Assembly (NCBI GenBank): GCA_018222765.1
Contig: JAAEZT010000013.1
Coordinates: forward strand, 70,483-105,921
Reading direction: 5' to 3'
Origin: a bacterium
GTDB lineage: Bacteria > Verrucomicrobiota > Verrucomicrobiia > Verrucomicrobiales > Akkermansiaceae
Length of the DNA stretch: 35,439 nucleotides
Translations under genes and position numbers: made by a program
In this document: positions 5,462 through 21,156 of the stretch, piece after piece
Position numbering within the stretch: the first letter of the stretch is position 1
Layout: each line of letters opens with the position of its first letter
Notes under the pieces: generated by a model
The model's database searches: none
Seen by the model: the letters and a program-made list of their open reading frames with translations, nothing else
What the model was told of the DNA's origin: nothing

Positions 5462-7102
5462 TTACCGATCGGACTTCAACTTTTGACTGCGGGCTTTCTC
5501 AAGAGCATTAACTGACACCATCTTGCCCCCTTTTGTTCCCAATCCGGACGGCGGGTCCTCGACCTGGTCCTTGGGATACTCAATCCGGGCATGCAGCATG
5601 CTTCGCAAGGTCTTGGAAAAGACCGCTCGAACGGTTGTCAGCTCGGACATGGTCAAACCACAGGCATCAAGCTGCCCGTCCTTGACCCGTTTGAAAACGA
5701 TCTCATCTACCAAAGCCTTAATACGGCCCGGAGACGGTTTGGAAATGGCTCGTGACGCGCTCTCGATTGCGTCGGCGAGCGAGATAATCCCGCTTTCCCT
5801 CGATTGTGGAATCGGACCGGGATAACGAAAACTTTTTTCATCCACCTTGGGAAGATCGTCGACTTCCCCTCCCTCTTCTTTTCCGCGGTTCTCCTCCTCC
5901 AATAGACGCTCCCGGGCCTTGCGATAGAAATAGTAGACTAGGGAATCTCCATGGTGCTCCCGAATCACCTCAAGAATCCGCGGGTTCAGCTTATCCTTGA
6001 TCGCCATATCAACACCGTCCTTCACGTGAGCGACGATAATCAGAGCACTCATCGTCGGGGTTAATCCGTCGTGCGGATTTTCGCCACCTTGATTTTCGAT
6101 AAAATACTCAGGCTTTTTCAGCTTTCCAATGTCGTGAAAATAGGCGCACACCCGACTCATCAGGGCATTGGCCCCAATCGCCTCGGCGGCACTTTCAGCA
6201 AGGGAGGCTACGATCAAACTATGATGAAAAGTGCCCGGAGCTTCTATTTGCATCCTCCGCAACAAGGGGTGATTCAAGTCGCTCAATTCAAGCCAACTGA
6301 TTTCAGTAGTCAGTCCGAAGACGCCCTCTAGGAGAGGAAGAATGCCGCCCACAAACAATCCCGTAAGTAAGCCTGTGATCAAAGCAACGAGACATGGCTT
6401 CCCAAAATTTTGCCACAACGCGCTCCCATCGAGCCCAACCGAATCGAGCGAGATTTTAACGAACAAAAGGTCGACCAAAAGCGCTCCCACACCCACCCAA
6501 AACCCAGCTCGCAACAAACGCCCGCGCTTTCGAACCCTCTTTGTCGCAAACACCGCAATCAAACCACAGAAGAGACTGATCGCCAAAAATGACCACCGGT
6601 CATCGGCCGGCATTGCGAGCGCCCCAAACATACTCACAAAAACCGCCGAGTAGACTCCCGCCCTCTGGCCCAGCAGGACGGAATGAACCATCGGCGCAAA
6701 GGCCAGAGGTAGAATCAAAAACTCATACTCTTCCGGCAGGGCTGTGCCGTCGGCAAAGCCGCAAGCCACCCGAACCAACCACAAGTGGGTAAGTATTCCG
6801 CCAAAAACAAGAAAGACAGTGCCATTCCGGCGAGCCGAGCTTTGATGATTCAAATGGAAAATGGCCAGCGAACACACCAGAATCACCCCAGCAATCGCCA
6901 ACCACCCCATGCTCGCGCTCTCCGTTCCGATCAACAGGGATAGCAGGCTCACCGCGAACCCCAAATAGAGCGCTCCGCGAAGAGCCAAACTTCGATCAAG
7001 CTTTTCGAAGGGGCCATCACCAGAACTTGTGCGACGTTTTTTACCCGACGACAAACCCTGCTGAACCAGCCGCCAACGTTTTATGACATCAACTAATCCC
7101 AA
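5462..7102 (-). CDS. 7TM-HD phosphohydrolase (PgpH/YqfF family, likely c-di-AMP phosphodiesterase)
   Basis: A membrane-anchored HD-domain hydrolase. Hydrophobic segments span about 41-260 (seven or eight), followed by the conserved junction LSDLNHPLLRRM and APGTFHHS (about 274-295). The HD motif YFHDIGK is at about 321-327, with further His at 359 and a later EHHGDS. Characterised members hydrolyse c-di-AMP; that activity is inferred here. At 546 residues it lacks the large extracytoplasmic 7TMR-HDED domain, since the first membrane segment comes about 40 residues from the start. The frame opens with TTG at 7102 and there is no good ATG nearby, so the exact start is uncertain. It is paired with ybeY downstream. 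Confidence 0.9.
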   Translation of the reverse strand: MGLVDVIKRWRLVQQGLSSGKKRRTSSGDGPFEKLDRSLALRGALYLGFAVSLLSLLIGTESASMGWLAIAGVILVCSLAIFHLNHQSSARRNGTVFLVFGGILTHLWLVRVACGFADGTALPEEYEFLILPLAFAPMVHSVLLGQRAGVYSAVFVSMFGALAMPADDRWSFLAISLFCGLIAVFATKRVRKRGRLLRAGFWVGVGALLVDLLFVKISLDSVGLDGSALWQNFGKPCLVALITGLLTGLFVGGILPLLEGVFGLTTEISWLELSDLNHPLLRRMQIEAPGTFHHSLIVASLAESAAEAIGANALMSRVCAYFHDIGKLKKPEYFIENQGGENPHDGLTPTMSALIIVAHVKDGVDMAIKDKLNPRILEVIREHHGDSLVYYFYRKARERLLEEENRGKEEGGEVDDLPKVDEKSFRYPGPIPQSRESGIISLADAIESASRAISKPSPGRIKALVDEIVFKRVKDGQLDACGLTMSELTTVRAVFSKTLRSMLHARIEYPKDQVEDPPSGLGTKGGKMVSVNALEKARSQKLKSDR

Positions 7103-7236: not shown

Positions 7237-7545
7237 TCAACCCAAACGGAAGACAATACGGGCCTTACTTGTGTCATAGGGCGACATTTCCATTTTCACC
7301 CGGTCCCCGACGACCAGACGAATGAAACGCTTCCGCATTTTCCCGGAAATATGGGCCAACACTTCGTGACCACTGGGAAGGGCCACTTTAAACATCGTGC
7401 CCGCGAGAACAGCGGAAATCGTCCCCTCAATTTCGACGGACTTGTCTTCACCTTCCTCTTTAGGTTTCTTGTCCCGATCGAGATCATTACGACTTCTCCG
7501 GCGACGTCCACCGCCTCCTCGGCGAAAATTTCTTGGCTTGGCGAT
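7237..7545 (-). CDS. infA: Translation initiation factor IF-1 (probable ATC start)
   Basis: The reading frame from about 7440 down to 7237 encodes an unmistakable IF-1 OB fold: EIEGTISAVLAGTMFKVALP, GHEVLAHISGKMRKRFIRL and VGDRVKMEMSPYDTSKARIV, ending FRLG. IF-1 binds the 30S A site with IF2 and IF3 during initiation. Upstream the frame stays open to a stop at about 7674, but it contains no ATG, GTG, TTG or CTG before the internal ATG of 'GTMF', which is too late. The best start by homology is ATC at 7545, giving MAKPRNFRRGGGG..., 102 residues with a basic Arg/Gly/Lys-rich N-terminal extension of about 38 residues. No Shine-Dalgarno sequence precedes it. A frameshift or assembly error is the main alternative. 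Confidence 0.9.
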   Translation of the reverse strand: MAKPRNFRRGGGGRRRRSRNDLDRDKKPKEEGEDKSVEIEGTISAVLAGTMFKVALPSGHEVLAHISGKMRKRFIRLVVGDRVKMEMSPYDTSKARIVFRLG

Positions 7546-7595
7546 AACTAAAAAGGGGTATGTTTTGAGAACAACCGGAACCTCCGGCCGAGCAG

Positions 7596-7624
7596 AGTAT
7601 GTTTCCCCTGCATCGCAATGGCAA
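7596..7624 (-). promoter_or_regulatory. Candidate sigma-70 promoter of infA
   Basis: On the minus strand TTGCCA (7619-7624) and CATACT (7596-7601) are spaced by 17 bases. They match the -35 and -10 consensus at 5/6 and 4/6 positions. Transcription would start near 7589, leaving a leader of about 44 bases before the proposed ATC start. Prediction from consensus only. Confidence 0.35.
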
Positions 7625-7704
7625 CGGAAAAAATCGCTCTCTTGGGCCGGGAGAATGCAAATTGGCCTTTCTCATTGCTTCATTCCCACTTAGAATATCC
7701 CCCG

Positions 7705-20490: not shown

Positions 20491-21156
20491 CTATTCTCCA
20501 CCTTCGTCGCGCTCTTCTCCGTCCTCAATATCATCATCGTCGTCGAACTCAGCGTCCTTCGCTTCGTCCTCGTGAATCAACTCACCGTGGGAAAGCATAA
20601 AATGGCGCTCTCTCTTTTCTTCGGGAAGTGGTGACAAAACCATTCCAATGGCACGACCGGCCAGCTTCGGCTCCATGTCAACATGAGCCATCCCTTTGAG
20701 ATCATTCTTCACTCGGTCCATGACAACAAAGCCAATATCGCGGTGGGCGTTTTCACGACCACGGAACTGAAGTTGCACTCGCACCTTGTGACCTTCGTCG
20801 AGAAATTTTTCAGCTCGGGCGCACTTGATATTGTAGTCATGCTCTTCCGTCCGGACACGGAATTTCACTTCCTTCATTTTGGCCGGACCTTTGCTTTTGG
20901 AAGTCTTTTTGAGCTTGGACTGCTCATACTTATATTTGCCGTAATCCACGATGCGACACACCGGCGGATCCGCATTGGCTGCAATCTCGACAAGATCAAG
21001 TCCAACGGACTTGGCCTTATCAAGCGCTTCACGTGTTGACATAACGCCAAGCTGCTGGCCTTCGCCGTATACAACTCGGATTTTTGGAGCACGAATACGA
21101 TCGTTCACCCGGGTCATATCCCGACGTGCTCTTTTGAACTTCTTCTTCTTGGCTAT
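20491..21156 (-). CDS. infC: Translation initiation factor IF-3 (start codon uncertain)
   Basis: IF-3 prevents 30S-50S joining and checks start codons. The N-domain RVNDRIRAPKIRVV and DLVEIAANADPPVCRIVDYGKYKYE, the linker, and the C-domain VRVQLQFRGRENAHRDIG are clear. The C-terminus carries an unusually acidic tail with a run of five Asp. Three starts are possible: TTG 21216, ATA 21156 and ATG 21117. The ATA gives (M)AKKKKFKRARRDMTRVND, whose basic leader is similar in length to the E. coli one. infC is known to use rare starts (AUU) for autoregulation. None of the three has a good Shine-Dalgarno sequence. It follows thrS, as in many bacteria, but rpmI-rplT do not follow. Confidence 0.93.
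   Translation of the reverse strand: MAKKKKFKRARRDMTRVNDRIRAPKIRVVYGEGQQLGVMSTREALDKAKSVGLDLVEIAANADPPVCRIVDYGKYKYEQSKLKKTSKSKGPAKMKEVKFRVRTEEHDYNIKCARAEKFLDEGHKVRVQLQFRGRENAHRDIGFVVMDRVKNDLKGMAHVDMEPKLAGRAIGMVLSPLPEEKRERHFMLSHGELIHEDEAKDAEFDDDDDIEDGEERDEGGE

Follow-up and report, generated by a model that had tools for sequence, protein, structure and literature searches.

The infA gene for translation initiation factor IF-1 in a 35,439-nucleotide stretch of Akkermansiaceae DNA (the window; GenBank assembly GCA_018222765.1, contig JAAEZT010000013.1) very probably starts with ATC, initiated with fMet. Codons of the same class, AUC, AUU or AUA (AUH hereafter), stand at the infA start in many members of the family and also at the start of infC, the gene for IF-3. 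A start of this kind would probably place IF-1 under fidelity-controlled homeostasis alongside IF-3, a reading modelled on infC.

The infA frame and its product

The IF-1 frame lies on the minus strand and runs from an upstream TGA at 7672-7674 to a stop TGA at 7237-7239. The gene had been predicted to lack an ATG, GTG, TTG or CTG (NTG) start between the upstream stop and the IF-1 core, and this is confirmed: the 42 codons from the upstream TGA to the ATC at 7543-7545 include none of the four, and the earliest NTG of the frame is residue 51 of IF-1, within the OB fold. NTG codons have a frequency of 0.075 on the minus strand of the window, which gives probabilities of 0.04 and 8e-4 for NTG-free runs of 42 and 92 codons; the absence is therefore, by itself, merely moderately unusual, and it is the comparison with other genomes that establishes the infA start, at the level of sequence. 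The relevant features are as follows.

7237..7545, minus strand: infA, 102 codons plus TGA, IF-1 as read from ATC (TIGR00008, PF01176, alignment to solved chains)
7543..7545, minus strand: ATC, very probable initiation codon (20/20 callable congeners; AUH in 53/96 called family genomes)
7546..7546, minus strand: U at -1 of the start codon (20/20 in the genus; 54/56 AUH genomes)
7435..7545, minus strand: Arg/Gly-rich N-terminal extension of IF-1, residues 1-37 (alignment of solved bacterial IF-1 chains)
7246..7434, minus strand: OB-fold core of IF-1, residues 38-100 (PF01176 match)
7672..7674, minus strand: in-frame upstream TGA, with the frame NTG-free from here to the ATC (codon reading of the frame)

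The product exceeds the cut-offs of both the infA equivalog model TIGR00008 (89.2 bits against 61.15, whole protein) and PF01176 (77.1 bits against 30.2, residues 38-100), which identifies it by profile as a bacterial IF-1. Its residues 34-100 align to solved IF-1 chains; with the bacterial chains among these, the aligned part opens at residue 30-36. A typical IF-1 has about 72 residues and starts beside the OB fold, a length that neither model demands; the window protein, unlike that short form, has 102 residues and carries a 37-residue N-terminal extension rich in Arg and Gly. This is an addition, not a loss, and membership of the IF-1 family stands. In genomes resembling Akkermansia muciniphila the extension reaches about 100 residues and is rich in Gly, Pro and Arg. 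A gene finder restricted to ATG, GTG and TTG starts would overlook the infA gene of the window or annotate it too short.

The gene sits in the S10/spc ribosomal protein region in many bacteria; in the genome of the window it lies outside that region (L326, G000:C26:322000-341900). Of the 20 called congeners, 18 have a 7TM-HD gene downstream of infA (window 5462-7102). The same genome has a second, divergent IF-1-like gene (L002, G000:C87:72953-73135) that scores 30.7 bits with PF01176, has GTG codons near its start and encodes a protein sharing 46% identity with residues 38-98 of IF-1; it has a match in 25 of 27 genomes of the genus.

Conservation of the ATC codon within the genus

The original prediction took the ATC at 7545 as the homology start of IF-1 and proposed a search for it in related genomes. 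We compared 20 congeneric species with a readable infA 5' end, a count that leaves out six congeners with no IF-1 match or only the paralogue, and likewise G031. All 20 have ATC at the start position and T at -1. Over the same congeners, four other Ile columns that are invariant in the protein are encoded by ATT 52 times and by ATC 28 times in 80 codons (Fisher P = 3e-8 against the start codon, with species that are not independent). Only 4 of 63 degenerate invariant residues have a single codon across all 20 species, these being the start and residues 4, 5 and 6.

In the three closest genomes, the 120 bases upstream of the ATC show 7, 16 and 10 differences, spread over all frame positions; downstream of it, 10/11, 13/14 and 13/13 of the differences fall at third positions. 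To judge from these alignments, the substitution pattern switches from non-coding to coding at the ATC. A single codon separates the upstream stop from the ATC in 9 of the 20 congeners, so that near the N terminus only the ATC or the codon preceding it can start the frame. Sequence comparison thus establishes the position of the infA start, its conservation and the coding boundary. A conserved upstream neighbour was considered as a source of the start and rejected: a match to the accD of the window lies beside infA in the three closest genomes only, and none was found in flanks of up to 1.5 kb at the other infA loci compared.

Start codons of infA across the family

We called the infA start in 96 of the 100 Akkermansiaceae genomes with an infA match, and in 3 genomes of family f6. 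Outside the genus the calls were curated by eye from reading frames and N-terminal homology. In long open frames (for example L168 and L199) a Shine-Dalgarno (SD) match aided the choice, which slightly biases those calls toward an SD association; at L174 and L194, which have several consecutive ATT codons, the last was taken as the start, and L043 was counted as ATG, with an upstream ATC preceded by GAGG also present. The four uncalled genomes are G187 (contig edge), G146, G200 and G020. In the last of these (L023, G020:C63) an unrelated, oddly GC-rich stretch near the contig start stands where the 5' end of infA should be, which is probably an assembly fault.

The 96 family starts comprise 46 ATC, 5 ATT, 2 ATA and 43 ATG, with no GTG, TTG or CTG, and the three starts called in f6 are ATC twice and ATT once. 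AUH codons start infA in 12 of the 15 called Akkermansiaceae genera, one of which, g3 (Akkermansia), is mixed; by these sequence calls, the AUH start is conserved beyond close relatives. The ATC proposed for the window was upheld by these counts, in which AUH and ATG are the only family starts, by the 20 congeners and the coding boundary, and by the SD matches described below.

It might be argued that a sequencing or assembly error removed an ATG or GTG from infA, and the window does come from a draft genome of 87 contigs. Such an error is exceedingly improbable, given that the same ATC is present in 20 species of the genus, in the single-contig genomes G058, G059, G062 and G091, and in the named isolates A. 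muciniphila CSUN-56 and Roseibacillus persicicus KCTC 12988 (L068), with ATA in Persicirhabdus sediminis KCTC 22039 (L104). The CSUN-56 locus (L081) reads TAA CCTTACAAGGAGAATCCT ATC AGC CCG, that is, stop, SD and ATC with no NTG between them. Among the genomes with an ATG start are Akkermansia glycaniphila Pyt (L082), Haloferula luteola (L099), H. rosea (L101) and Luteolibacter marinus (L092). Two Akkermansiaceae lineages use an ATG infA, and the weak start is therefore not essential.

On a tree built from the joined core sequences of IF-3 and IF-1 in 54 genomes, of which two belong to f6, the AUH or ATG state of infA changes three times, and none of 500 shuffles was as low; counts over related genomes are not independent and the tree has only these three changes. 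One gain of AUH before the split of f1 and f6, followed by two reversions, would fit, with an unsure root, the outgroup not falling on one side of a branch. The ATA and ATT rows of the tree show repeated changes of the third base within the AUH class. In 46 genomes from other orders of the class, a mechanical rule that seeks only ATG, GTG and TTG near the core gave 39 ATG, 5 GTG and 2 unassigned. Within the order, 27 loci outside f1 and f6 were read by eye: 25 have ATG, and L308 and L312 are ambiguous between GTG and a neighbouring ATC.

Ribosome-binding sites and leaders

An SD match precedes 31 of the 56 AUH starts (f6 included) and none of the 43 ATG starts. It is AAGGAG in 28 cases and shorter in 3, with a spacing of 4-9 nt, mostly 6. 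All 31 are outside the window's genus, where they make up 31 of 36 AUH starts (Fisher P = 4e-17). A U at -1 accompanies 54 of 56 AUH starts as against 24 of 43 ATG starts (Fisher P = 8e-7); as the genomes are related, both P values overstate the evidence. The remaining 25 AUH starts, those of the 20 genomes of the window's genus and of five other genomes, have no SD match, and therefore it is not general for an AUH infA to stand on a strong site.

These matches bear on the possibility that translation starts elsewhere, at an NTG that lies upstream, in frame or reached with frameshifting, or downstream. An in-frame NTG does occur further upstream in 13 of the 56 AUH genomes. The other 43 have none, and in 37 of them the frame opens within 10 codons; the upstream differences in the three closest genomes are not coding-like; a downstream start in the window would begin inside the OB fold; and the 31 SD matches lie 4-9 nt before the AUH codon itself. 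We regard a start elsewhere as highly improbable, and retain the AUH codon as the start.

The leaders without SD in three genera (L041, L195, L006-L013) have TTTTAAGTT or a similar U-rich stretch, followed by ATC. Metagenome-assembled genomes of Roseibacillus or Verrucomicrobiales (L070, L072) have AACCCAGGAAC(A/G)AGTT in the place of TTTTAAGTT, an SD-bearing version. RNA structure around the ATC was of ordinary stability in the leaders folded (z = 0.48 in the window, 0.73 in L006 and 0.35 in L041), and was set aside as a candidate.

Start codons of infC, infB and ribosomal-region genes

The window holds a second gene with an AUH codon at its homology start, namely infC.

20491..21156, minus strand: infC, 221 codons from ATA, IF-3 (TIGR00168, 192.1 bits)
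21154..21156, minus strand: ATA at the infC homology start (the other congeners read have ATA or ATC)

At the homology start of infC an AUH codon is present in 60 of 66 genomes, a count that omits six loci of families f3 and f4: 39 have ATA, 20 ATC and one ATA or ATT. The six with GTG all belong to genus g3 (L368-L373), and in two that are counted there, G058 and G062, the GTG is followed two codons later by ATA or ATC. Most infC frames also contain a downstream ATG (MTRVN) that is an alternative start. G040, G124 and G155 lack any NTG in the 40 codons before the conserved core, which leaves AUH as the start. The -1 base of infC is mostly C; the U at -1 of infA is not common to the two genes. 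G028, G064 and G072 have AUH in neither gene (infA ATG, infC GTG).

The gene for IF-2, infB, has ATG at the head of the frame in 20 of the 21 loci read (taken from 29 loci; one frame was unidentified), and in the S10/spc region of the window's own genome 21 ATG and 1 GTG were seen among 22 genes read by eye, whose identities we take to be those usual for that region. Among the genes compared, the rare start therefore appears, on sequence, to be concentrated on the genes for IF-1 and IF-3. The start of infA had been suggested to have a link to IF-3, and that suggestion gains support from the AUA of infC in the window, its AUH class in 60 of 66 genomes and the ATG of infB.

These counts also speak to a reading in which initiation is relaxed throughout the clade, so that AUC would serve nearly as well as AUG and the codon would drift, with an A29:U41 initiator tRNA as a possible contributor. 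In the window's own genome A29:U41 does replace G29:C41 in the initiator tRNA, and across the order 212 of 239 genomes carry the motif. It is present too in genomes with an ATG infA (for example G032 and G110) and in other families, and so does not track the trait; infB and the ribosomal-region genes use ATG, and within the genus the codon has not drifted, with ATC in 20 of 20. General relaxation is very improbable.

The tRNAs were examined as causes in their own right. In the initiator-like tRNA of the genome (L230, G000:C77:15050-15123) A29:U41 replaces the outermost-listed, first pair of the three anticodon-stem G:C pairs (CAGG-CTCATAA-CCTG); the usual stem, CGGG...CCCG, was seen in 23 of the 239 order genomes. 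An initiator tRNA that reads AUC was rejected, as L230 has a CAT anticodon, one of three own-genome CAT-anticodon tRNAs that were read, and A29:U41 was rejected as the cause on account of its order-wide distribution. ARAGORN named no tRNA-Ile(GAT) among 35 own-genome tRNA matches, perhaps because the draft lacks its rRNA operons.

Possible control of IF-1 by initiation fidelity

AUC, AUU and AUA mismatch the CAU anticodon at the third base alone, and IF-3, helped by IF-1, discriminates against this class; GUG and UUG are tolerated by bacterial IF-3. According to a review, IF-1 contributes with IF-3 to the fidelity of initiation, mainly at 50S docking (PMC4611024); a 2026 preprint treats it as part of a fidelity checkpoint (PMC13345285), and a codon-anticodon survey describes the exclusion of weaker third-base pairs by IF-3 (PMC10158994).

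The infA gene very probably initiates at AUC with fMet, and the weak codon, on a site that could otherwise be strong (an SD in many genera, U at -1), would make translation of infA respond inversely to how actively IF-3 and IF-1 enforce fidelity. With too little of the two factors for the 30S subunits present, a larger share of initiations at AUC would survive and IF-1 would rise; when they are plentiful, AUC complexes would be rejected. With infC under the same class of start both fidelity factors would be held together, and infB, with its AUG, would stand outside this control. The autoregulation of infA is inferred by analogy with infC, and we consider a homeostasis of this type probable.

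The AUC start might instead merely cap IF-1 at a low constant level, as a dosage limit without feedback. A start of the same class, AUU, reportedly serves as a dosage limit for pcnB in E. coli, to go by the title of a paper on that gene. The contrast in SD use between AUH starts outside the genus and ATG starts, which looks like two routes to a similar output, would suit such a limit, and AUA and AUU starts yield less than AUG in S. aureus reporters (PMC13009471). A low output could equally be had from GTG, TTG or a weak SD, yet the 53 non-ATG starts among the 96 of the family are all of the class that IF-3 rejects, and infC shares that class. It is mainly this preference for AUH over GTG and TTG that leads us to favour feedback; a plain dosage limit is rather unlikely.

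Relation to known systems

Control through the start codon is known from infC. In Myxococcus infC (dsg) is reported to start at AUC. In E. coli a change of the infC start to AUG is said to abolish self-control (Butler and colleagues, 1987). Published work gives the infC start as ATT in E. coli and ATC in Streptomyces, with translational feedback by IF-3 (PMC5472188), and as AUA in S. aureus (PMC13009471). Like these genes, the infA of the window encodes an initiation factor and starts at a codon that is near-cognate through its third position, and its product helps to reject such codons. It differs in encoding IF-1, and feedback has been reported for E. coli infC whereas for infA it is proposed by analogy; the Akkermansiaceae differ further in that infA and infC often both have AUH starts.

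Two other systems share some of these features. In Streptomyces the GTC start of sigR is described as repressed by IF-3 (PMC5472188); this too is a rare start codon missed by gene finders, there used for IF-3-dependent control, but sigR does not encode an initiation factor, has a different codon and forms no self-feedback loop. In Chlorella and tobacco, chloroplast infA starts with UUG (Hirose et al. 1999, cited by PMC9845219), which makes it an IF-1 gene with a non-AUG start, though one of an organelle and with a codon that bacterial IF-3 tolerates, hence of another control class. Among the open-licence papers listed by our searches, none was seen to describe a bacterial infA that starts at AUC, AUU or AUA. 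Non-AUG infC, by contrast, is well known.

A parallel may also exist in eukaryotes, where the initiation context of eIF1 reportedly modulates its autoregulation (Ivanov and colleagues, 2010). As in the control proposed for infA, the start site on its own mRNA would be the point of control for a factor that selects starts; in eIF1 this lies in the context, not in the codon, and eIF1 is not regarded as the homologue of IF-1.

Implications for the Akkermansiaceae

The distribution of weak starts allows a more tentative suggestion, in which we place rather less confidence than in feedback on infA itself. IF-1 and IF-3 of the Akkermansiaceae may form one homeostat, both genes starting at codons that their own products reject, so that stringency would be sensed at two genes, IF-1 would be directly autoregulated and IF-2 would be exempt, and lineages may move the weak start between infA and infC. 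In the A. muciniphila group infA has AUC or AUU and infC has GUG where read; the g7/g10/g27 group, which appears to include Haloferula and Luteolibacter, combines AUG in infA with AUA or AUC in infC.

Self-control by way of a rejected start codon is already known for IF-3. If IF-1 is under control of the same kind in this family, it would offer a natural readout, in vivo, of the part it plays in fidelity, and the share of IF-1 in the choice of start codons would become testable in A. muciniphila or with leaders transplanted into E. coli.
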